Below are positions 30,037 through 39,910 of a stretch of DNA of 39,910 nucleotides, piece after piece (within the stretch, counting starts at the first letter, position 1; the number at the start of each line of letters is the position of its first letter). Made by a program: the position numbers and the translations under genes. Origin of the DNA: Clostridia bacterium (GTDB taxonomy: Bacteria; Bacillota; Peptococcia; DRI-13; SM3-B62); the NCBI GenBank assembly GCA_018432615.1, contig JAHDSQ010000032.1:1-39910 (forward strand), in the 5' to 3' direction. The notes under the pieces were generated by a model. That model was not told the DNA's origin, did no database searches, and saw only the letters and a program-made list of their open reading frames with translations.

Positions 30037-31173
30037 ATGTTTGTGAATATCAAGCAAGATGCTAACAATCTAATAATCCAGTTTCCCTATTCAGAAGAGA
30101 ATGTGAGAAGAATAAAAAGCGTTACCGGAATGAGATGGAATAAGGAAATAAGCTGTTGGGTCGGAATGTATAGTGAACAGCTCCTCGAGAATGTTTGCCA
30201 AGTATTCAAAGACAAAGAAATATTTGCGGACGAAACTATAAAACTAAAGATGGAAAGAATCAAAAAGGAGCAAAAAATAAGTAAAGAGAAAACAAGGATA
30301 ATTAAGATTAAAGAAGGCCTTGTAAATGAACTGAAACTACACGGGTACAGGGGCAAAACAATTAAAGCTTACAGTAATCATATTAATAGATTTCTTACAT
30401 ATACAAACAAAAATGATGATAGTTTTGACAATGAAGTAATTAGAGATTATATATTGTATTTAATAGATGAAAAGAAGGTATCAAATACTTATATCAATCA
30501 GTTTGTCAGTGCTGTGAAATTCTACGGTAAACACATAATAGGCAATGAGGAACTAGTGGACAAGGTGCCGCATTTAAAAAAAGAGAACAGCCTACCATCC
30601 ATCCTGAGCATAAAAGAGATAGGTATTATATTAAATACATTTAAAAATATTAAGCATAAGGCGATATTATCTTTAACATATTCGGCGGGATTGAGGGTTA
30701 GTGAGGTAGTATCACTAACATTAGAAGATATAGATGCGGAAAGACAATTAATACATATTAGAAAAGGGAAAGGAAGTAAGGATCGGTACTCTACGCTCTC
30801 ATATATTAGCTTGGGCATTATAAAAGAATACGTAAAAAAATATCATCCTCAGAAATGGCTTTTCCCCGGAGAAACAGAGGGAAAGCATATTTCAGAAAGA
30901 ACAGTACAAAAGGTTTTTCAAAACGTCGTGGAAAAGGCAGGTATTAAAAAAACAGTAACTGTTCACTCATTACGTCATTCTTTTGCAACGCATCTTCTGG
31001 AAAGCGGTACAGATTTGCGGTATATTCAAGAATTACTGGGTCACAATAGCTCTAAAACTACGGAAATATATACACATGTAAGTAAGAAGGATATAAGCAG
31101 AATACAAAGCCCGCTTGACAGGGCATTTCGCAATTCCAGTATTGACGATAATAACAGTATCGACCAGCTATAA
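30037..31173 (+). CDS. Tyrosine recombinase, integron-integrase-like
   Basis: A 378-aa recombinase that would cut and join cassettes at attI/attC. The catalytic set is complete: R220 (AGLRVSEV), K245, H310 and R313 (HSLRH), H336 (LLGH) and Y345 (IYTHV). The ending RIQSPLD is like the RSPLD of IntI proteins. The stretch between the catalytic lysine and HxxR (about 260-295) is short, and the extra patch of about 20-30 residues that defines IntI is not seen. Residues 1-50 (FPYSEENVRRIKSVTGMRWNKE, in parts) resemble a HARP-like domain, and residues 85-165 form the SAM-like core-binding domain. It points toward the cassettes, unlike most integrons, and has only a weak RBS (GGGATG). Confidence 0.9.
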   Translation: MFVNIKQDANNLIIQFPYSEENVRRIKSVTGMRWNKEISCWVGMYSEQLLENVCQVFKDKEIFADETIKLKMERIKKEQKISKEKTRIIKIKEGLVNELKLHGYRGKTIKAYSNHINRFLTYTNKNDDSFDNEVIRDYILYLIDEKKVSNTYINQFVSAVKFYGKHIIGNEELVDKVPHLKKENSLPSILSIKEIGIILNTFKNIKHKAILSLTYSAGLRVSEVVSLTLEDIDAERQLIHIRKGKGSKDRYSTLSYISLGIIKEYVKKYHPQKWLFPGETEGKHISERTVQKVFQNVVEKAGIKKTVTVHSLRHSFATHLLESGTDLRYIQELLGHNSSKTTEIYTHVSKKDISRIQSPLDRAFRNSSIDDNNSIDQL

Positions 31174-31289
31174 CGAAATTACCCGCAACATGTTCGCAAT
31201 AACTACCGTATTTTCCAGTATATACGCAATGCGGGTAAACACATTTTGTGGGAGATATTGCGAAACATTGCGGATAAAAGTAGTTAAAT
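31174..31289 (+). other. attI-like primary insertion site
   Basis: The 110 bases between the recombinase stop and the first cassette joint (G31283^T31284, core GTTAAAT) hold repeated hexamers. CGCAAT occurs at 31195 and 31225, and its inverse ATTGCG at 31257 and 31267. The pair ACCCGCA (31181) / TGCGGGT (31230) adds a dyad. These may be recombinase binding sites. The cassette-1 boundary is supported by its end at 34204-34221, which complements 16 of the 18 bases that start at 31283. Confidence 0.7.
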
Positions 31290-31387
31290 GAAATTGGTCG
31301 CAAAGACCGCGCCGTCCTGGCGCGGATTAACCAAATATTAATAACTCTTATTTAGAGCATGGTACATTAAAAAGGAGGATATTCCTT

Positions 31388-32722
31388 TTGGACGACATTG
31401 TGCGAAATAAAGAAATTGAATATACCAAGGAAAATGCAAAGATAGAATTCAAAAAAGGAAATTATCCTCTTGCAAAAATTATTCTTGAAACCCTTTGGAA
31501 TAATTCAAACAAGGATGATGCATATTTGCTATATTATTATGGCCAGGTTTTGAGAAAAGAAAAAGAAAGTATCACATTTATTGAAATATGTAGAGGATTA
31601 AATTCCAATAAAAAAATAATGTCAAACAGGTGGATTGCTTCCACCCTGTGTTGGTGTTTGTATGATGCCTATATCAGAAATTACTCTATTGAAGACAAAG
31701 ATGGTTTTAATGATTTTATAAAAAGAGCTGAATACATTGAAAATAATTGTACACAGATGAATGCGGAGGAACATTATAAAACTCCATATGTTCTGACGAT
31801 AAGAAAAGTAGTAAAAGCATATAACGATAAGGCTTCGAGAAAATTTAAGGAGATAATAAAGTGGTTGTCATGTTTAGATCCAGATAAGCTTTCCGAAGAG
31901 GTTTTTAACTTTCAAGATGAAACTGGTAAAGACAGAGAATTAGCTTCACCAAAAGAGTTTTATTATTACAATATGGCTAAAGCTCTAGAAAAAACAGAAA
32001 AATACGAACCCTGCATTGCAATCTGTGAAGCAGCTTTTAAACAAATAAAGAAATTTCATTATAGAAATGATGTATGGCTGAAGGCAAGAATGTTTTATTG
32101 TAAATGTATGCTAGAAGAAGATCTCGAAAGCGCAATTGCGGAATATAAGGCATTGGCATACAAAGAAAATTACTGGTTCATGTATCATAAACTAGCGCTA
32201 ATATGTTGGCGAAATAACAAAGTACCAGAAGCTTTGTTGTATGCAAGTAAGGCATTTATAGGGAGATTTGAACATGAAAAAATGGTAAATCTCATGTTAG
32301 ACACTGCACTACTCTGGCAAGCAACAGGAAATAATGCAAATGCTAAATTGTTCTTTCAAGCGAGTGCTTATTATAGGGAACGACAAGGATGGTCATCTTT
32401 AGAGGAACTTGAATATGCCGTTAGTATTCTTGAAATTGATGTTGAAGAAAAACCAAATATCAGAGAAATAAAGCGAATTTCAAATGATTACATCGATACT
32501 ATTGAAGGAAAGCCAGAAAGATTTAATGGCAAAATTAACAATATACTGCCACACGGTGGGGCAGGGTTTATAAAACCAAAAGATGGTGTTTCGAATGTAT
32601 ATTTTAATATGAATGATGTTGTAGAGAAAAGAGTTTTGAAAAAAGATGATATTGTAGAATATGAAATATCAAAAGGTAAAGATGGGAAAATACGGGCAGT
32701 CAAAATAGCGCAAAGGAGTTGA
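31388..32722 (+). CDS. TPR-like protein with C-terminal cold-shock-like domain
   Basis: A 444-aa protein, the first gene of cassette 1. Residues 10-340 are helical repeats of TPR type (for example AKIEFKKGNYPLAKIILETLW and KALEKTEKYEPCIAICEAAF). The last 70 residues (FNGKINNILPHGGAGFIKPKDG, then VYFNMNDVV and KDDIVEYEISKGKDGKIRAVKI) have the strand order and GFI/VYF nucleic-acid contact motifs of a cold-shock/OB domain, so RNA binding is likely. The start is TTG, with GGAGGA 8 bases upstream. It is followed after 4 bases by an RnlA-like toxin gene, suggesting a third component of that system. Confidence 0.75.
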   Translation: MDDIVRNKEIEYTKENAKIEFKKGNYPLAKIILETLWNNSNKDDAYLLYYYGQVLRKEKESITFIEICRGLNSNKKIMSNRWIASTLCWCLYDAYIRNYSIEDKDGFNDFIKRAEYIENNCTQMNAEEHYKTPYVLTIRKVVKAYNDKASRKFKEIIKWLSCLDPDKLSEEVFNFQDETGKDRELASPKEFYYYNMAKALEKTEKYEPCIAICEAAFKQIKKFHYRNDVWLKARMFYCKCMLEEDLESAIAEYKALAYKENYWFMYHKLALICWRNNKVPEALLYASKAFIGRFEHEKMVNLMLDTALLWQATGNNANAKLFFQASAYYRERQGWSSLEELEYAVSILEIDVEEKPNIREIKRISNDYIDTIEGKPERFNGKINNILPHGGAGFIKPKDGVSNVYFNMNDVVEKRVLKKDDIVEYEISKGKDGKIRAVKIAQRS

Positions 32723-32726
32723 GAAA

Positions 32727-33758
32727 ATGAGTGAGATACATATTAATAAAGATGACATTAAATCAATTGTAGAATCATATGTGAGGGAAAACAGTACATT
32801 TGTTATTAAGTCATTTGTTGATAATGATATTAAAAAAACTTGCTGCTGTTTTATTAATGGGAAAGAATGCAAAATTATTTTTTACATCAAAAAGAATAGT
32901 GTAAGAATTCAGCCGGTGGGAAAAAATATTGATGAATGTAATCTATTAATTAAGTTTATTAAATCAAAAGGATTTTCAACAAACGTTGCGGTGAATCAGT
33001 TTGTTTTTTCATGTGCTAAAGAGATTGTTGATAACCTTGTAAAATATGTCACGGACGAGTGTCATGGTTTATTAACTTACACACAGAATGGAAACCTGTA
33101 CAAATTTACCGGTTATAATGGGGATGTATTAACGTTTACATTCTATCCCCAAACGAATAAAGCTATGATACAAGGTAGACCTTTTCATGCATATAGTATT
33201 GTTGTATCTTATTTGTCTGGGCTATCGGAGTTTTCGTTTGATCAAATTGTTGAGATAAACAATGCTTTTGTTCAAATGAACACTCCGAGTTCTTCAATAA
33301 GAAATGAAATGCAAAGTAAATTAGGAGATGCATATTCTTATTTAGATGAAGCGCTAATAAAATCGATATCTGGATCACTAACCTTACTGAAACAAAAAGC
33401 CATATGTGAGGATTATACCGGCTGTGTTACTGGAGACTTTAAAGCATTAGAAGGGTATTTGAAAAAAATATTATCACAAAAGTATAGTTACAGACTAGAA
33501 AAGAAAAACACATTTTCCATGTTTCATAGGGATAGAAGAAATCCTAGTAGAATAGATTTGGATGTAAACATAACTAAAGATGCAAAAGAAGAATTAAATA
33601 AACTTTATGCTTTGTATTCAAACAAAAGAAATGTCTATTTGCATTCAACTGTGGATCCATCCCAAACAAGAATAATTGAAACATTAAAGGAAGCGCAGGA
33701 CTTATCAGATGAGATATTGCAAACAATAAAATATTCATATCCAACTATTTTTAATTAG
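32727..33758 (+). CDS. rnlA: RnlA-family toxin (HEPN ribonuclease)
   Basis: A 343-aa protein resembling RnlA, the RNase LS toxin that degrades mRNA, for example during phage infection. The N-terminal half holds two related alpha/beta repeats (FINGKECKIIFYIKKNSVRIQP; LTYTQNGNLYKFTGYNGDVLTF, in parts). The C-terminal helical domain ends with the HEPN catalytic motif R301-x4-H306 in NKRNVYLHST. It has an AAAGGAG RBS and is followed 40 bases later by an RnlB-like antitoxin gene. Without a search the RnlA call rests on length, the HEPN motif, the partner and general sequence resemblance. Confidence 0.72.
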   Translation: MSEIHINKDDIKSIVESYVRENSTFVIKSFVDNDIKKTCCCFINGKECKIIFYIKKNSVRIQPVGKNIDECNLLIKFIKSKGFSTNVAVNQFVFSCAKEIVDNLVKYVTDECHGLLTYTQNGNLYKFTGYNGDVLTFTFYPQTNKAMIQGRPFHAYSIVVSYLSGLSEFSFDQIVEINNAFVQMNTPSSSIRNEMQSKLGDAYSYLDEALIKSISGSLTLLKQKAICEDYTGCVTGDFKALEGYLKKILSQKYSYRLEKKNTFSMFHRDRRNPSRIDLDVNITKDAKEELNKLYALYSNKRNVYLHSTVDPSQTRIIETLKEAQDLSDEILQTIKYSYPTIFN

Positions 33759-33798
33759 AAAGAGATATTTTGTTAAATATCTTTGTAAGGAGGATATT

Positions 33799-34161
33799 AT
33801 GCAAGAATACCAAATATTTGAGTTCGATGATGATGTGAATCAAAAATTGGTGTTTATTACAAGTACTGAGGATTTATATTATTTGCAGAATGATATATAC
33901 GACGATCTCTCAAGAACAAACGGCGAAAAATTTACAGTATTAGTAGATTTGTTTTTACGCAACGGATTTTCATTTAATAGATTTGTTTCCTTACATTATA
34001 AAGGGAAAGAGCAGTGTCGATCTTTTATCGTAAATCCAAGAGAGGTTTCAGAGGAAATAAAATCAAAAATAAGAAGCTTTTTAAAAACGAACGTCGAACT
34101 GCTTAACAATAGTGCGTTGACGAAAAGTACAGTAAACTTTGTGACAACAATGGAAAAATAG
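33799..34161 (+). CDS. rnlB: RnlB-family antitoxin
   Basis: A 120-aa acidic protein. The central LVDLFLRNGFSFNRFVSL matches the LL-ANG-x-NRFV core of RnlB antitoxins, which bind and neutralise RnlA. AAGGAGGATATT precedes the ATG. It is the last gene of cassette 1 and ends 54 bases before the attC core. The order toxin then antitoxin is the same as in E. coli rnlAB. Confidence 0.72.
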   Translation: MQEYQIFEFDDDVNQKLVFITSTEDLYYLQNDIYDDLSRTNGEKFTVLVDLFLRNGFSFNRFVSLHYKGKEQCRSFIVNPREVSEEIKSKIRSFLKTNVELLNNSALTKSTVNFVTTMEK

Positions 34162-34214
34162 GATTAAAGGGATCGACATCCTATCGATCTCTGAATATGG
34201 GGACGACCAACTTC

Positions 34215-34410
34215 ACTTAACAACGCATTCCCACAAGGTGCGGATTAGCGGGTTCAACGTGGGCCGAGATTTGTAGAAGGGCTGAAGTAAGCCGCACACA
34301 TCCTTCGGCCCAAGACCGGTAGGACCCGTCTCGCTTTCGCCAAGTACAAGTACTAAGGCTTAAGCTTCGTCTTAGGGCCGAAGAACGTCGGGAATGCAAA
34401 TCCGTTAGCT
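34215..34410 (+). repeat. attC-like site 1 (class A)
   Basis: The left core box ACTTAAC (34215-34221) and right core box GTTAGCT (34404-34410) bracket GCATTCCC (34225) and GGGAATGC (34390). Inside are nested inverted repeats: GTGCGG/CCGCAC, TTCGGCCC/GGGCCGAA and AGTAC/GTACT. The joint is after G34404. The site is close kin to site 7 over its 3' 110 bases. Confidence 0.85.
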
Positions 34411-34520
34411 GAAATCGGACGGTAGCCGTGCCATCCATGGCACGGAAATGTTTTAGCGATAAACTTTATAGTATATAACTTGAGGATAATAATTTTGGAA
34501 ACAAGGATGGTGAATATACT

Positions 34521-35066
34521 ATGTTTAAATGGGTACGAAGTTTTATTGTTTTTCTGGCATTGGTAACCATTGTACTTAGTGGTTGTTCTCAGAAAAGTAA
34601 TGATGTAGAAATTGAAAATCAAAAATTAAGATCTGAGGTGGAGCAACTTCAGTTGAAAGTAGAGGAAAAGAATAAGCAAATCGAACAGTATCATAAAGGA
34701 TATAACCTTCAAATAATGTTGTACTACGATATTAGAAAGTTACTTTCTGCATTAGACAAAGGTGAATTTAGTGAAGATGAAAAAGATTTACTAAATGATA
34801 ATATTGCGGTACAGGAAGAGAGATTGGTAATAATTTCTGAGAACAATACTCATGATTTTCTCTTCTTTGAGAATAAATTAGATTTTGAATGGGTCAGGCT
34901 AATGTATTTTCACTTAGATGATGAAGGAAGATTTGTTATCGGCTATGAGGTTTATGATAAAACTGACAATGAGGAAGAAAAAATCGCAAGTAGAAGAATA
35001 GAAGTTTTTACATTTATTGAAAAGCCTTCAGGGTGGAAATTGGTTGATATCGGAACAGATGTATGA
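34521..35066 (+). CDS. Cassette 2 lipoprotein of unknown function
   Basis: A 181-aa protein with a signal sequence and lipobox VLSGC (C22). A coiled coil follows (about 30-60: ENQKLRSEVEQLQLKVEEKNKQIEQY, in parts), then a small alpha/beta domain ending in EKPSGWKLVDIG, similar to protein-protein DUF4878-like folds. An AAGGATGGTG RBS precedes the ATG. Cassettes often carry exported proteins of unknown role. No enzyme motif is seen. Confidence 0.78.
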   Translation: MFKWVRSFIVFLALVTIVLSGCSQKSNDVEIENQKLRSEVEQLQLKVEEKNKQIEQYHKGYNLQIMLYYDIRKLLSALDKGEFSEDEKDLLNDNIAVQEERLVIISENNTHDFLFFENKLDFEWVRLMYFHLDDEGRFVIGYEVYDKTDNEEEKIASRRIEVFTFIEKPSGWKLVDIGTDV

Positions 35067-35179
35067 AGTATATTTTAGTGAGCTAACAAATGCAACTACG
35101 ACATTTGATCACTATATAGTGGCTTTTGTTTAAGGGGCTGCCGTCCTGGCAGCCTCCAAGTCTGGGGCCGTCCGACATC

Positions 35180-35256
35180 AGCTAACAGTGAATTCCCTAA
35201 ATCTGAGAGATTATGAACGTAATAACCAGACTTCGGGAATTCACGGAACGATAAGC
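35180..35256 (+). repeat. attC-like site 2 (short class)
   Basis: AGCTAAC (35180-35186) is the exact complement of the start of cassette 2 (GTTAGCT). Inner arms are GTGAATTCCC (35188) and GGGAATTCAC (35235). The joint is after G35250, where the next element starts with ATAAGC, giving a GAT rather than a GTT triplet. At 77 bases it is the shortest site in the array. Confidence 0.82.
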
Positions 35257-35428
35257 GGACATCGCTCGCTACGCGAGCTCGTCCGATTATCGCGGCGCGG
35301 GCACTGCCTGGAGATTGGCTCGCTCGCGCAAGCGTTCGCGACACCGCCTATCTCCAGGTTTACAAAATCCTTTCGTCAAGAGTTGCAAGCAACTCTAAGA
35401 CTCAAGTACTTCGTAAACCCGCGCCGCG
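35251..35428 (+). mobile_element. Gene-less 178-bp mini-cassette, copy 1
   Basis: It begins ATAAGCGGAC after G35250 and ends at G35428 before TTATGC. Its start pairs with GTCCGATTATC at 35281-35291, so only about 20 bases lie between the two arms. The remainder is an attC-like site (35285-35434) with arms GCGGCGCGGG (35292) and CCCGCGCCGC (35418), plus internal hairpins, including AGAGTTGC-AA-GCAACTCT (35379-35396). It contains no credible gene. A second copy with six base differences lies at 37056-37233. GC content is far above its neighbours. Confidence 0.8.
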
Positions 35429-35485
35429 TTATGCGCAATTTGCTCTATTAGTATTGCAAAATGAGAATATGAATAGTCAATCCTA

Positions 35486-35497
35486 TGGGGTATAATA
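35486..35497 (+). promoter_or_regulatory. Candidate -10 element of the MazF-type cassette
   Basis: TGGGGTATAATA contains a perfect TATAAT 35 bases before the antitoxin ATG. The same 12-mer stands before the antitoxin of cassette 5. No good -35 box is visible. Confidence 0.45.
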
Positions 35498-35530
35498 TTT
35501 TTAGAAGCAATCTGAGGAAGGTGATTATTA

Positions 35531-35728
35531 ATGAGCTTATCGAAGGATAAACTTCTTGAGTTAATTGAAGACCTACCAGAGAAAGAAATGGGAGAACTGA
35601 TCAATTTCGCAGGATACTTAAGAATGAAAAGAAAAAAGGAAAATTATCAAGAACTACTGAAAGCAAGTGAGAGTAGCTTGGGTTTCTGGAATAATTCAAA
35701 GGATGATGAGGTTTGGAATAATGTTTAA
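35531..35728 (+). CDS. DUF2281-like antitoxin
   Basis: A 65-aa helical protein. The start LSKDKLLELIEDLPEKEMGELINFAGYLRMK is the core of the DUF2281/VapB-like antitoxin group, and its acidic tail would wrap the toxin. AGGAAGGTG precedes the ATG. Its 3' end overlaps the MazF-like toxin gene by 8 bases, as usual for antitoxin-first pairs. A relative is found in cassette 5 with a different toxin. Confidence 0.75.
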   Translation: MSLSKDKLLELIEDLPEKEMGELINFAGYLRMKRKKENYQELLKASESSLGFWNNSKDDEVWNNV

Positions 35729-36062
35729 ACAGGGGGATATCATATTAATTCCAATTCCATTTACAGATTTATCATCAAGTAAGAAAAGACCAGTAATTGT
35801 ACTTTCAAAACATGAATATAACAAAAAAACAAATGATATAGTAGTGGCAGCAATAACCTCAAATTTTGAAGAAAAGCAATACGGCATAGTAATCAAAAAT
35901 GAAGACTTAGCTGAGGGTGACCTTAAGGTAGATTCAATAATAAGGGCTGACAAATTATATACCATGTCTCAGGATATAATCATAAGGAGGTTTGGTCGGG
36001 CGAAAGGTTATATTATTGAAAAAGTAAAAAAACAAATAAGCAGTTTAATTGACGAAAAATAA
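35721..36062 (+). CDS. MazF/PemK-family toxin
   Basis: A 113-aa endoribonuclease-type toxin. FKQGDIILIPIPFTDLSSSKKRPVIVLS shows the first strands and the basic loop of the PemK/MazF fold, followed by IVVAAITSN and DLKVDSIIRADKLYTM, with conserved residues of the active site. I start at ATG 35721, where the family begins, not at an upstream in-frame ATG that would add 18 residues from the antitoxin gene. It probably cleaves mRNA when the antitoxin is lost, stabilising its cassette. Confidence 0.88.
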   Translation: MFKQGDIILIPIPFTDLSSSKKRPVIVLSKHEYNKKTNDIVVAAITSNFEEKQYGIVIKNEDLAEGDLKVDSIIRADKLYTMSQDIIIRRFGRAKGYIIEKVKKQISSLIDEK

Positions 36063-36120
36063 TTAACAGAAATATGTTTTTTATTTTGAATATAAATGAA
36101 TGAATGTTTACGCAAACAAC

Positions 36121-36223
36121 GCATAACAACGGATTGCCGGTTCCGCTATGCTTCACCCAAACCTTTTCGCCAAGTGCAGTCGCACTAGGGCTAAAAGGCT
36201 TCGGCAATCCTGGTACGTTATCT
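36121..36223 (+). repeat. attC-like site 4 (class B)
   Basis: GCATAAC (36121-36127) complements the start of cassette 4 (GTTATGC). Inner arms are GGATTGCC (36131) and GGCAATCC (36203), with the hairpin AGTGC-AGTC-GCACT at 36173-36186. The joint follows G36217, core GTTATCT. Its 90-base interior differs from site 5 at only 4 positions. Confidence 0.87.
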
Positions 36224-36300
36224 GAAATAACGACATATTGGAGCAATATCTTTGTAGTATGGTAAATTACGTAAGAGAAGATAGTAACTGAGTATATACT

Positions 36301-36312
36301 TGGGGTATAATA
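36301..36312 (+). promoter_or_regulatory. Candidate -10 element of the Doc-type cassette
   Basis: TGGGGTATAATA, identical to the element before the cassette 4 antitoxin, lies 34 bases before the ATG. No clear -35 box is seen. Confidence 0.45.
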
Positions 36313-36346
36313 GAAATTAAGTAGCAGTATTAAAGAGGTGTTAAAG

Positions 36347-36520
36347 ATGAGTATGGCTGAAGAATTAATTAAAAGCTTTGAAGAACTTCCGGAAGATAAG
36401 AAAAAGGAAGTGTTTAACTTTATTGAAATTCTTAAAACAAAGACGAGTAAAGAAGTAAACAAGATGATGAATATTATTATTGAAGAAAATAAGTCAGCCT
36501 TGGAGGAGTTAGGGAAATAA
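36347..36520 (+). CDS. DUF2281-like antitoxin paired with Doc
   Basis: A 57-aa protein (MSMAEELIKSFEELPEDKKK, then EVFNFIEILKTK) of the same small antitoxin group as the one in cassette 4. I start at ATG 36347, six bases after AGAGGTG; an ATG three codons upstream lacks an RBS. Its stop overlaps the Doc start by one base. It should bind and block the toxin. Confidence 0.72.
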   Translation: MSMAEELIKSFEELPEDKKKEVFNFIEILKTKTSKEVNKMMNIIIEENKSALEELGK

Positions 36521-36900
36521 TGAAGATGGTTACCTTAAATGATATCCTGTTGTTTCATAAAAAAATAATTGAGGAAACAGGTGGAAGAGAAGGGGTCAGA
36601 GATGTCGGATTGATTGACAGTTCGCTGAATAGAGCTTTTCAAACGTTTAATGAAATCGAATTACATCAGGGTATAATTGAGAAGATATCAGTAATGACAT
36701 TTAGCCTAATAAATAATCATGGATTTGTTGATGGTAACAAAAGAATCGGAATTGCTACGATGTTGCTAATATTAAAGCTAAACAATATTAAGATTGAATA
36801 CACTCAAAATGAACTTGTGAAATTAGGGTTTGGAATAGCTGACGGAACAATTGACGAGAAAGAGATCAAAAACTGGATAGAACATCATTGGGCAAAATAA
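36520..36900 (+). CDS. doc: Doc/Fic-family toxin
   Basis: A 126-aa death-on-curing type toxin. The Fic motif is H67-G-F-V-D-G-N-K-R75 followed by IG, close to HxFxDxNKR of Doc, which phosphorylates EF-Tu and stops translation. The N-terminal GGREGVRDVGLIDSSLNRAF is also typical of the family. Glycine replaces the alanine common in Doc before NKR. It is the second gene of cassette 5, directly coupled to its antitoxin. Confidence 0.9.
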   Translation: MKMVTLNDILLFHKKIIEETGGREGVRDVGLIDSSLNRAFQTFNEIELHQGIIEKISVMTFSLINNHGFVDGNKRIGIATMLLILKLNNIKIEYTQNELVKLGFGIADGTIDEKEIKNWIEHHWAK

Positions 36901-36958
36901 GGCAGTGTGTTTAGATGCCCTTTTTTATTGTGCTAAAGCAGAAAACTGTCGTTACTTC

Positions 36959-37061
36959 AGATAACAACGGATTGCCAGTTTCGCTACGCTTCACCCAAAC
37001 CTTTTCGCCAAGTGCAGTCGCACTAGGGCTCAAAGGCTTCGGCAATCCTGGTACGATAAGC
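36959..37061 (+). repeat. attC-like site 5 (class B)
   Basis: AGATAAC (36959-36965) is the exact complement of the start of cassette 5, and the match extends to 17 of 18 bases. Inner arms are GGATTGCC (36969) and GGCAATCC (37041). The joint follows G37055, where mini-cassette copy 2 begins with ATAAGC. Confidence 0.87.
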
Positions 37062-37233
37062 GGACATCGCTCGCCGCGCGAGCTCGTCCGATTATCGCGG
37101 CGCGGGCACTGCCTGGAGATTGGCTCGCTCGCGCAAGCGCTCGCGACATCGCCTATCTCCAGGTTTACAAAATCCTTTCGTCAAGAGTTGCAAGCAACTC
37201 TAAGGCTCAAGCACTTCGTAAACCCGCGCCGCG
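37056..37233 (+). mobile_element. Gene-less 178-bp mini-cassette, copy 2
   Basis: Same length as copy 1 with six substitutions, two of them in the loop region near the start. The left arm GATTATC is at 37090-37096 and the right joint follows G37233 (GTTATGC). It sits behind a different attC (class B rather than the short class), so the same unit has entered two places. No credible gene is present. Confidence 0.82.
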
Positions 37234-37276
37234 TTATGCGAAATTATTGTTTGGAGCGATAGGAGAGAGATTAGAA

Positions 37277-38689
37277 ATGACTTCAAAAATATTATTGGAC
37301 AATGCAACAGTAACAAGTATCCAGAGAGCTCTAGGTTATATAAATGTTCAAAATGATGCAGTTATTGACCTTGAAATAACAAACTTATCCAATTTATGTG
37401 AAGCAGTATTATTTAATGAAGAAATATATATTCCATATGAGTTGTATAAGAGAGATTTTGTTGATGATAGAAAAGATTTATTCTCTCAACTTGGGATTAA
37501 AGAGCTATCTTTAAATACTGAAACAGAACAAGATATAGATAAAATAGCAACTGCTTCTTTTTCAAAATGGTATCTCGATTATAAAGATGACCAATCAGGA
37601 TTATTTAATCAAATACTAAATTTAATGGATCTCTATATGAAGTTTGTTTGGAATTATCGTTCTTCCGAGTATTGGCTAGTTATGAGGGCTTTCCAATCGG
37701 ATGAAGGAAATATATGTTCAGCAAAAATTCCGATATTTGAATCAATGCTAACAGATAAAAATAATGCAATATGGAACTCATTTGAAAAGTTAGGAAGCCA
37801 TGATATCGTTGATTCTATGGGGAGAATACTTGAAGAAAATAAAGTAAAAAATGGATATAAAACAAGGCCAGGTCCTAATAAAATGATGGCTGCATTAGCT
37901 TGGAATATTTATAGATCAATTTATTATAGAATTCTTGCTACATTAAATGATTGTATTTATTATCCTCATTCGCTTAGAGGGATTGGTGCAGTTATTGATT
38001 CGATAACCGTTTCTGATATAACAATTAATGAGGATACTTTAAGTTCATATGGGTTTCCAAAATCAAGTAAATTGTTAACTGAGTCTTTTCAAGAAATTGT
38101 TGAAAAACAAAAGTCTGAATTGTTTGAGGTAGGTGCAATAAAAGGTGGAGCGACCTTTGCTATACCTCCATTATTGGGACACGTTTTATATCAAACAAAA
38201 TATAAAGAAGACTTTTTTGAAGTGCTTCTAAAATTGAAAGAGGATAGTCGGATAGTAGACCTACGTAAAACTTTAAGGGAATTTGAAGAATCTATTAAAA
38301 ATGGAGATTTATCAGGGATAAGGAAACGGAAAGGTGAATTGGATAAGACAAGTCGTTCGGTTAGAAAAGAAATGGGAATAGATGAATCTAGATTGGAATT
38401 AAATCCTTTATCATATATTTCTGGAGGTATGGTTAATAGTGCAGGTATTGGTATACCTATTCCTAAGAGTTTAAACCAAATACAAATTATAGCAAAACCA
38501 TCCGATTGGAGACTATGGTATAGGGAAGTAGCTATAAATTTAAGAAACGTTGCTAGATTGGGAGCGGAATATGATAAGTTAAAGTCTTGGGCTAAATATA
38601 AAGATATAGAAGCTTATAATTGGTATTCCAAAAAAGATTATCCTATGAAATACACTCATACTCTTGATTTTGGTATAAAAGGTCATTAA
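37277..38689 (+). CDS. Cassette 7 protein of unknown function
   Basis: A 470-aa soluble protein with no family that I recognise. It is mainly helical with a few glycine-rich spots (GAIKGGATFAIPPLLGH near 290; SGGMVNSAGIGIPIP near 395) and a charged helix (about 320-370). ATG 37277 is chosen because AGGAGAG lies at proper spacing; the frame extends 30 bases upstream without an RBS. It is the only gene of its cassette. Large unknown proteins in integron cassettes are often defence-related, but nothing in the sequence proves this. Confidence 0.75.
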   Translation: MTSKILLDNATVTSIQRALGYINVQNDAVIDLEITNLSNLCEAVLFNEEIYIPYELYKRDFVDDRKDLFSQLGIKELSLNTETEQDIDKIATASFSKWYLDYKDDQSGLFNQILNLMDLYMKFVWNYRSSEYWLVMRAFQSDEGNICSAKIPIFESMLTDKNNAIWNSFEKLGSHDIVDSMGRILEENKVKNGYKTRPGPNKMMAALAWNIYRSIYYRILATLNDCIYYPHSLRGIGAVIDSITVSDITINEDTLSSYGFPKSSKLLTESFQEIVEKQKSELFEVGAIKGGATFAIPPLLGHVLYQTKYKEDFFEVLLKLKEDSRIVDLRKTLREFEESIKNGDLSGIRKRKGELDKTSRSVRKEMGIDESRLELNPLSYISGGMVNSAGIGIPIPKSLNQIQIIAKPSDWRLWYREVAINLRNVARLGAEYDKLKSWAKYKDIEAYNWYSKKDYPMKYTHTLDFGIKGH

Positions 38690-38699
38690 AAGAAATAAC

Positions 38700-38869
38700 T
38701 TCGAACAACGCATTCCCACAAGGGCGCGTTGGGCAAGGGTTTGGGGTGTGCGCGCCACATCCTTCGGCCCAAGACCGGCAGGACCCGTCTCGCTTTCGCC
38801 AAGTACAAGTACTAAGGCTCAAGCTTCGTCTTAGGGCCGAAGGACGTCGGGAATGCAGGGACGTTAGGC
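38700..38869 (+). repeat. attC-like site 7 (class A)
   Basis: Arms GCATTCCC (38710) and GGGAATGC (38849) and the 3' two-thirds are nearly those of site 1. The inner stem GGCGCG/CGCGCC replaces GTGCGG/CCGCAC of site 1. The right core is GTTAGGC (38863-38869). The left core reads TTCGAAC, which equals the expected TTCGCATAAC with CAT deleted. Confidence 0.83.
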
Positions 38870-38896
38870 GAAACCCGAGGGATAGGAGAGGTAAGA

Positions 38897-39790
38897 ATGT
38901 CAAATGTATTTAGAGATATTATTGAAGATATGCATCGCAAAGAACTAATAGATTTTGATGCCCTTGCTGACTTACAGACGCTTGTTTACCTACCTGCAGA
39001 ATCCCCAACAGAACTAAAAGTTAATGTAGTATCTGCTATCAAGGCTTATAATGGCGGTTATGCTTCAATAGATTATATTAAAAAGCATTATGGTAAAAAA
39101 TGGGGGGATTATCTAAACAAAAAAGAAGGAACAAGTCAGATCAGAGAAATTATCAATGTTACTTTAGTTAAATTGGAAGATATGGAGAAAATTGCTGAAA
39201 TCAATATTCCTGGAAATATTGGATATGTAATCGCAAGAGGTGCGTTATGGAGGTTACAAACTAGTTTTAAAGCGGCATTACATTTATTACGGAATTCCTA
39301 TTATTATGAAACGCTATCAGTAACAAGATTGATATTCGAACAATTAGCTTGGATTTACAAGATATACGAATTTGATACTGCCGAAGAAATATTGAAAATC
39401 TCGCCAACCAAATCAATTGGGAAAATCAAAAATATTTACCCTGAAGCGGGAGCGCTTTATGGTTTTTTAAGTGAGCATGCACATATTTCATCAAATTTGG
39501 TTTCCGACTATATTCATGTTTCAGATAGTTATTCTGATGTCATATTAAAAAGCCCTCAAAATAATGATAAAAGCGCATATATTATTCTTTCGTTGATTGA
39601 TTTATACTGCATTATCATTGAGTTAATATTTTACGATTTTATAGATGATTGTAGTTCTGTATTTTTAGATGAGGAAGGCAAAACGCTATATATTAACGAT
39701 CTCAGGGATTTTAAAGTGAATTATCTAGATAAATATGAAAAAAAGACTATAAAACAACTCGGGCATCGCCTAACAATTAGAGATTTATGA
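38897..39790 (+). CDS. Cassette 8 helical protein of unknown function
   Basis: A 297-aa protein with an AGGAGAGG RBS. It is largely helical; residues 130-215 (LLRNSYYYETLSVTRLIFEQLAWIYKIYE, then YGFLSEHAHIS, in parts) resemble HEPN/DUF5677-like proteins, where a similar H-A-H stretch occurs. The C-terminal 15 residues (GHRLTIRDL) are encoded by the left box of the cassette's own attC. No catalytic motif can be assigned with confidence. Confidence 0.72.
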   Translation: MSNVFRDIIEDMHRKELIDFDALADLQTLVYLPAESPTELKVNVVSAIKAYNGGYASIDYIKKHYGKKWGDYLNKKEGTSQIREIINVTLVKLEDMEKIAEINIPGNIGYVIARGALWRLQTSFKAALHLLRNSYYYETLSVTRLIFEQLAWIYKIYEFDTAEEILKISPTKSIGKIKNIYPEAGALYGFLSEHAHISSNLVSDYIHVSDSYSDVILKSPQNNDKSAYIILSLIDLYCIIIELIFYDFIDDCSSVFLDEEGKTLYINDLRDFKVNYLDKYEKKTIKQLGHRLTIRDL

Positions 39791-39910
39791 TGTTCAAAAG
39801 AGTCAAAACAAAAAGTTCCGGCTCGAAAAAAAGAAACGGAACGTAATAAATAAAACCACAGACAGAACATCATGACTCTCAGGTTGTACTGAACCGTCTG
39901 CAAATCATAT
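39768..39910 (+). repeat. attC-like site 8, right end uncertain or outside window
   Basis: GCCTAAC (39768-39774) is the exact complement of the start of cassette 8 (GTTAGGC), extended to 15 of 17 bases. ATGATGTTC (39787) and GAACATCAT (39865) may be the inner arms, and GTTGTAC at 39883 a possible right core. The right half is not convincing, and the site may end past the window. Confidence 0.55.

Follow-up and report, generated by a model that had tools for sequence, protein, structure and literature searches.

The window analysed here is a stretch of 39,910 nucleotides that makes up the whole of contig JAHDSQ010000032.1 (contig C70 of genome G000, the 3.16 Mb, 70-contig assembly GCA_018432615.1 of a Clostridia bacterium). 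Within it, a tyrosine recombinase gene (30037-31173) is followed on its 3' side by eight units whose joints, G^TTA or G^ATAAGC in sequence, fall at positions 31283, 34404, 35250, 35428, 36217, 37055, 37233 and 38863, and by the start of a ninth unit at 39883, 28 bases before the contig end. An initial annotation, made from the sequence alone, had described such a recombinase with at least eight units behind it as an integron-type cassette array. This description held: the eight units and the start of the ninth were located, cassette ends are self-complementary, the sites fold, and a recombinase with an attI-like first joint stands before them. The features are as follows, the cassettes being numbered c1 to c8:

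30037-31173, + strand: recombinase of 378 residues; 232.8 bits with NF040815 (XerA), over the cut-off of 220, and 195 bits with TIGR02249 (integron integrase), under the cut-off of 265
31174-31283, + strand: attI-like region, with inverted arms at about 31183-31201 and 31256-31273 and the first joint at G31283^TTA; the same-genus match ends at 31286
31283-34403, + strand: cassette c1, with genes for a TPR/cold-shock protein (31388-32722), an RnlA-like protein (32727-33758) and an RnlB-like protein (33799-34161)
34215-34410, + strand: attC-like site of c1, type A, R'' ACTTAAC and R' GTTAGCT; folds
34404-35249, + strand: cassette c2, lipoprotein-like gene (34521-35066); R'' AGCTAAC, exact
35180-35256, + strand: attC-like site of c2, type D; bottom-strand z -4.5
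35250-35427, + strand: cassette c3, a geneless 178-bp unit with seven near-full copies in the genome; its boundaries are both joints
35285-35434, + strand: attC-like site of c3, type C; bottom-strand z -7.4
35428-36216, + strand: cassette c4, DUF2281 antitoxin-like gene (35531-35728) and PemK/MazF-like toxin gene (35724-36062); R'' GCATAAC, exact
36121-36223, + strand: attC-like site of c4, type B; folds
36217-37054, + strand: cassette c5, VapB-like gene (36338-36520) and Doc gene (36520-36900); R'' AGATAAC, exact
36959-37061, + strand: attC-like site of c5, type B; folds
37055-37232, + strand: cassette c6, geneless, 96% identical to c3
37090-37239, + strand: attC-like site of c6, type C; bottom-strand z -8.6
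37233-38862, + strand: cassette c7, gene for a protein of about 470 residues (37277-38689); R'' agrees at 3/7
38700-38869, + strand: attC-like site of c7, type A; folds
38863-39882, + strand: cassette c8, gene for a 297-residue protein (38897-39790); R'' GCCTAAC, exact
39768-39889, + strand: attC-like site of c8, type E, with the joint to the ninth unit at 39883; folds

We consider it likely that this locus is a chromosomal integron-type gene-capture platform, driven by a XerA/IntI-like tyrosine recombinase that is fused to a HARP-like domain and lacks the insertion of the integron integrase IntI. The first line of evidence comes from the cassette ends. Site boundaries were set by homology blocks (types A to E) derived from repeats, and the first seven bases of each unit were compared with the box before its 3' site. 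According to the initial annotation, this box complements the start of its own cassette in every gene cassette. The match is exact in four of the eight units, with the very 7-mers given there for c2, c4, c5 and c8, and reaches six of seven positions in c1 (ACTTAAC against the expected ATTTAAC) and in c3 and c6 (both GATTATC against GCTTATC); only in c7 did the claim fail, as the box TTCGAAC agrees with the expected GCATAAC at three of seven positions in register. A fusion or decay may account for c7. Each unit has four variable positions, and 25 of the 32 agree, a value equalled by 20 of the 40,320 permutations, all of which were computed.

Seven nucleotides understate the end complementarity, which continues as far as about position 18 and is interrupted at position 11. 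The same layout was followed in 45 cassettes, 18 from Bacillota (three of them from loci L056 and L054, where the recombinase is HARP-less or broken) and 27 from Bacteroidota. Apart from c7, these cassettes had been selected for an exact or near-exact 7-mer, which makes positions 1-7 non-independent; positions 8 and up are independent. Positions 1-10 of the cassette start and 3' end mostly agree; position 11 is mismatched in 43 of the 45, in 35 of them with a 5'-side A opposite a G (c7 is one of the two that match there). Agreement resumes at position 12 in 17/18 Bacillota and 21/27 Bacteroidota cassettes, and this second block reaches about position 18 in the former and 14 in the latter. Plasmid cassettes of Rufibacter tibetensis and Pontibacter kalidii, whose ends were picked by eye, are mismatched at position 11 in all eight cases, seven of them A/G. 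An A/G at this position corresponds to a T.G wobble on the bottom strand and to an A.C mismatch on the top strand; overall, wobbles favour the bottom strand 48 to 7, position 11 accounting for 35 of the 48. Four IntI cassettes from one genome, too few to generalise to IntI integrons, agree to about position 10 and show no second block.

Folding was assessed on both strands with RNA energies and 100 dinucleotide shuffles per site. The long folded site proposed for the end of each unit is found in all eight, with z-scores between -2.1 and -8.6 over both strands and the bottom strand lower in seven of eight. The bottom-strand fold is also lower at 20 of 28 Bacteroidota sites and at 8/8 sites of loci L039 and L238. 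By energies and z-scores the sites of the window qualify as folded attC sites.

The second line of evidence concerns the joints. Genome G001, of the same genus, is 95% identical to the window over 4150 alignment columns that include the recombinase; the alignment stops at 31286, directly after G^TTA, and beyond the first joint its sequence is unlike that of the window. A comparison of relatives at the joints had been proposed with the initial annotation, and this relative diverges exactly at the first of them; the two genomes together place an attI beside the recombinase gene with insertion at G^TT. Look-alikes of the attI region on contigs C10 (89% over 97 positions) and C38 (82% over 111) of the window's own genome are followed by other sequence after GTTA. 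In the same genome, all seven near-full copies of the geneless type C unit (178 bp; c3) have their left breakpoint at CG^ATAAGC and their right one at CG^TTA. Their right neighbours are all different, and the left flanks differ too, several of them coming from related type A-kind sites; one complete copy in G001 has the same two breakpoints. Because G001 diverges at the first joint and the type C copies break at both, we read these positions as recombination joints, which they look and behave like.

The third line of evidence is the recombinase itself. It comprises a HARP-like N-terminal domain (about residues 1-68), a SAM-like domain (96-170) and a catalytic domain (194-350), with the motif SPLD near its C-terminal end. 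Residues R220, K245/K248, H310, R313, H336 and Y345, which are taken as the catalytic residues of the family, are invariant in an alignment of 30 proteins (A3). The two predicted models have predicted local distance difference test (pLDDT) values of 89.7 and 91.6, and the closest solved structure is the Vibrio integrase VchIntIA (2a3v). Aligned with the IntI proteins of genomes G344 and G165, which have stretches inserted around patch III, the recombinase lacks them, and the insertion was found in none of the 30 proteins of A3 and none of the 11 of a further alignment (A2). The initial annotation had overlooked that this recombinase is not IntI, given the absent insertion and the sub-threshold TIGR02249 score (195 against 265 bits), and that it carries the HARP-like domain; it had also overlooked the exception of c7 and the relatives at the head of arrays in other phyla. 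A metagenome-assembled genome (MAG) of Peptococcaceae (L122) holds a match of 69% in the best segment (query residues 203-369), and there are other Bacillota matches. A 57-protein tree places the three IntI in a single clade (support 100/100) separate from the 40 HARP-type proteins and groups 14 Bacillota rows, 13 of them HARP-type (100/98). A single origin of the HARP group is unsupported by this tree, which has five label changes and open forks and includes one protein (X_L137) labelled HARP-less though it has the extension.

Residues 1-68 are mostly of high confidence in both models. A profile built from 29 such domains finds the HARP domain of SMARCAL1 (4o66) first among solved chains (E 7e-4), and with an E limit of 10 seven of 11 Bacillota members match Pfam HARP (PF07443), the best at 7e-8. 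In VIA-align, UvsW scores Z 7.9 (root-mean-square deviation 1.6 over 60 residues) and XPB Z 7.3 (1.6 over 54), and SMARCAL1 HARP stands at rank 42 with Z 4.2 (1.7 over 47); Foldseek with the N-terminal domain gave no match at E 0.001. We use the term HARP-like with caution because these Z-scores lie below 8. UvsW and XPB use these N-terminal domains on branched or damaged DNA. The domains of SMARCAL1, XPB and UvsW share the predicted fold, with weak sequence similarity for SMARCAL1; there they are fused to a helicase-type motor, whereas here the partner is a recombinase. In the available text of PMC4035279, human and fly HARP domains serve annealing-helicase activity. Some Bacteroidota recombinases (L118, L119, L123 and L130) are longer at the N-terminus and, read by eye, seem to hold two tandem HARP-like units; they have the four best scores in the profile search for the extension.

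Finally, HARP-type relatives head cassette arrays in other Bacillota and in Bacteroidota. The contig scan took the best 80 of at least 588 candidate loci, of which 31 were counted as having the extension and 49 were filed as HARP-less; a later profile search, for which most of the 31 were training rows, found the extension in six of the 49 as well (L137, L139, L142, L145, L149 and L177). In none of these six does either side hold more than one exact pair; L137 and L149 have at least 4 kb downstream. In Flavobacterium enshiense DK69 (L129), Rufibacter sp. SYSU D00344 (L128), Algibacter onchidii (L146) and a Flavobacterium MAG (L147), 22 of 25 cassettes carry an exact 7-mer. Overall, R'' matches the start of its own cassette except in c7 and at three of the 25 joints of these four best-looking arrays. 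Small genes alternate with sites in them, and the listed downstream open reading frames all run with the recombinase, except one of 75 residues in L129.

The position of the pairs is a cleaner test than the count of adjacent pairs. Around the 31 HARP loci, 35 exact pairs lie downstream of the gene in 151 kb and one upstream in 265 kb; around 21 Bacillota loci, window included, the figures are 15 in 116 kb and two in 147 kb, giving 50 downstream against three upstream for both sets together. Contigs end less than 4 kb downstream of the gene in 18/31 loci, against 4/31 upstream, as repeat arrays would cause. In the adjacent-pair test, with sites picked blind to the rule, 26 of 113 pairs were exact at 30 HARP loci (2000 shuffles: mean 4.2, maximum 11) and 3 of 69 at 21 of the 49 loci filed as HARP-less (mean 0.7, maximum 4); this second set includes L172, L182 and L183, added because pairs had shown there, and the energy thresholds differ between the sets and were fixed after site energies had been inspected. 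A looser count gave 39 exact pairs in forward order at the 31 HARP loci, and 11 forward and two reversed at the HARP-less ones. On its own the site detector is weak: low thresholds yield palindromes throughout the window, and on two plasmids (L253 and L254) it called one and zero exact pairs although reading the intergenic stretches showed sites. The lack of a call at a locus therefore means little.

Several observations weigh against an integron-type platform driven by the HARP-fused enzyme. The IntI-specific domain is called defining and necessary in the available text of PMC9668308, and the part of PMC8138268 that is available describes the insertion as indispensable for integrons to function, with incomplete conservation in an integron-like subgroup; here it is absent. 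Recombination itself is inferred from sequence comparison. Cassette c7 breaks the end rule, and the top strand folds better at 8/9 sites of L129 (and at 3/4 IntI control sites). The four arrays with 22 of 25 exact cassettes were chosen because they looked best, the Bacillota-side loci alone are weak in the adjacent-pair test (6/26 exact; shuffles mean 2.4, maximum 6), and the reversed-order control of the looser count at HARP loci still gives 10. Two or more exact pairs occur in only 6 of 13 HARP loci with 4 kb downstream (6/15 with L137 and L149), and in only 4 of 11 Bacillota loci with more than 3 kb downstream, the window among the four. Genome G004 (L056) has two exact pairs near a recombinase without the extension, and G008 (L054) one exact pair and only a broken, truncated relative. 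As to the domain, Pfam HARP matches 1/30 members of A3 at E 0.01 and not the window recombinase, and CASTOR1 (Z 7.1) and eIF1 (about 6), which we took as unrelated, rank between UvsW/XPB and SMARCAL1 HARP.

An alternative that we regard as unlikely credits the arrays to an ordinary IntI that acted in trans or has meanwhile disappeared, which would make them clusters of attC sites lacking integrases (CALINs), with the HARP-type enzyme as an unrelated Xer-like protein or a hitch-hiker. The reported need for the insertion (PMC8138268, in part) would fit this, as would the statement, in the available text of PMC9668308, that CALINs are common and more widely spread than intI. However, arrays lie downstream and rarely upstream of HARP-type genes in both sets of loci, and the attI-like region 3' of the gene ends at the joint. 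Moreover, none of the 15 genomes checked that have such recombinases or sites, among them that of the window, has IntI over the cut-off. Of 398 Bacillota genomes, two have it, against 18 with a full-length HARP-type match (two of these 18 with an in-frame stop). In G344, one of the two IntI-bearing genomes and the positive control, the array has three consecutive exact joints.

Somewhat less probable still is that the cassettes are moved by a HARP-less XerA-like recombinase, with the HARP-type gene as a mere marker of the locus. Such genes occur in the window's genome on C53 (2045-2896), C10 (16500-17114), C49 (616-1296) and C26 (20715-21422), contigs that also hold attC-like sites, and G004 combines exact pairs with a HARP-less recombinase nearby, the stretch before which resembles that of C49. 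The C53 and C10 proteins are 96% alike over 212 residues, the C26 protein having been left out of the comparison, and on each of the four contigs the recombinase gene is oriented opposite to the sites. The genome has two more recombinases, of about 306 residues, on C14 and C32; these are presumably XerC/D. This explanation loses ground at the HARP-less loci themselves, where none of the 29 with 4 kb downstream shows an array there (0/27 without the two that have the extension), and in G006, whose array follows the rule and whose recombinases at E 1e-30 are the HARP-type gene and one weak Xer-like match. Upstream, 2 of 31 HARP-less loci have arrays: three exact pairs precede the XerA-like gene of L172 (a Peregrinibacteria MAG) and two that of L183 (a Spirochaetes MAG), possibly a further recombinase type with arrays.

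It is very improbable that the repeats are a palindromic mobile family, not recombination sites, with the genes between them incidental. The type C unit, a 178-bp geneless repeat in seven copies, resembles such an element, yet end complementarity is cassette-specific, site types A to E differ in sequence, small, nearly all codirectional genes alternate with sites in four arrays, and the exchange at the first joint of G001 and at the type C copies speaks against it. Least credible of all is a canonical integron with a divergent IntI from which the insertion has been lost: VchIntIA is the best solved-structure match and the NCBI name of one such protein includes integron integrase, but the insertion is absent throughout A3 and A2 and the three IntI form a fully supported clade of their own.

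We therefore retain the integron-type platform with a HARP-fused recombinase as the preferred reading. Matched cassette ends, folding, unit exchange at the joints and arrays behind HARP-type genes emerge from comparing sequences, and from these we infer the HARP-type recombinase as catalyst, a single-strand route and a role for the HARP-like domain. Our model suggests that cassettes would move as circles that leave and enter arrays at G^TT (or G^AT). Start and end of a given cassette would then join into a folded site whose basal stem spans the crossover, with 10 pairs, the mismatch at position 11 and three to eight further pairs. The probable substrate of the recombinase is a single folded strand, the bottom strand more likely than the top. 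The HARP-like domain may recognise the fold as a substitute for the IntI insertion, and circles would be taken up at the attI-like joint directly behind the recombinase gene. We also lean, with less assurance, towards a second integron class in Bacillota, Bacteroidota and plasmids, in which HARP-fused recombinases would read folded sites through a branched-DNA recognition domain rather than the IntI insertion and bipartite ends would surround a fixed mismatch.

As far as sequence can tell, the system works like an integron but fails the defining test of the integrase. With IntI integrons it shares cassettes, folded attC-type sites with R'' and R' boxes, the G^TT crossover, an attI beside the recombinase gene and toxin-antitoxin cassettes. 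Unlike in those, the recombinase lacks the IntI-specific insertion and has the HARP-like domain, its gene runs in the cassette direction, and a second complementary block follows position 11 (only four IntI cassettes were compared). XerA (NF040815) recombinases likewise have core-binding and catalytic domains, no insertion and an NF040815 score over the cut-off; the HARP-like domain is the difference. CALINs share arrays without IntI, whereas here another recombinase heads the array; IntegronFinder would probably class these arrays as CALINs. Literature screened by title and the start of the abstract, with subscription papers and preprints outside the search, included nothing on HARP domains joined with tyrosine recombinases or integrons and described no such arrays in these phyla or with XerA, which is no proof of absence.

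In the available text of the IntegronFinder 2.0 survey (PMC9024848), one complete integron is given for Firmicutes (Limnochorda pilosa), with a few CALINs there, and Salinibacter ruber is the complete-integron case reported for Bacteroidetes proper. IntI with its insertion is held to be required for gene-by-gene collection, and the same text reports complete integrons in Bacillota and Bacteroidota as very rare. If our reading is true, the distribution, origin and mechanism of integrons would look different, and searches demanding IntI would miss these systems. A share of the arrays filed as CALINs would be complete integrons with an unrecognised recombinase, and the question of why attC clusters without IntI are so common would become testable.

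Regarding cassette content, the three toxin-antitoxin cassettes of the initial annotation are borne out as toxin-antitoxin-like modules: RnlA/RnlB in c1 (PF19034, 8.7e-15; PF15933, 1.2e-11; the cassette also matches the PADLOC TPR+cold-shock model at 1.9e-39), PemK with a DUF2281 partner in c4 (PF02452, 3.8e-16; PF10047, 24.9 bits, not reaching the cut-off of 26.5) and Doc with a VapB-like partner in c5 (TIGR01550, 71.7 bits, over the cut-off of 38.65; VapB model, 29.7, under 60). The toxins and RnlB are over cut-off (RnlA through its DBD model), and the DUF2281 and VapB matches are under it. The c7 protein has no match in NCBIfam, Pfam or PADLOC at E 0.01. An Rfam scan of the window gave nothing at gathering score; with E up to 1 allowed, 31100-39910 has two matches at chance level. 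The window holds no tRNA or tmRNA genes.

On plasmids, HARP-type recombinases are followed by runs of small genes in L254 (Rufibacter tibetensis plasmid 1), L253 (Pontibacter kalidii plasmid pls1) and L252 (Chryseobacterium sp. SNU WT5 plasmid), and cassette-end pairing was seen in the first two. IS110 transposases lie downstream in these runs, together with a group II intron in L252. The NCBI product name of one plasmid HARP-type protein is site-specific tyrosine recombinase/integron integrase.

Small hairpins were also observed in which the loop is always GTCC and the paired stems vary. They lie in the window at 31307-31325 and 35136-35154 and on contigs C10, C26, C38, C49 and C53 of the same genome, and are rare in relatives. 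In 104 kb of array contigs, 14 lie on the cassette sense strand and none on the other (the mean of all 4-mer loops is 0.69). By detected sites, four of the 14 stand 20-23 nucleotides after a cassette start and three 47-48 nucleotides before a site, and several others are placed alike by eye.

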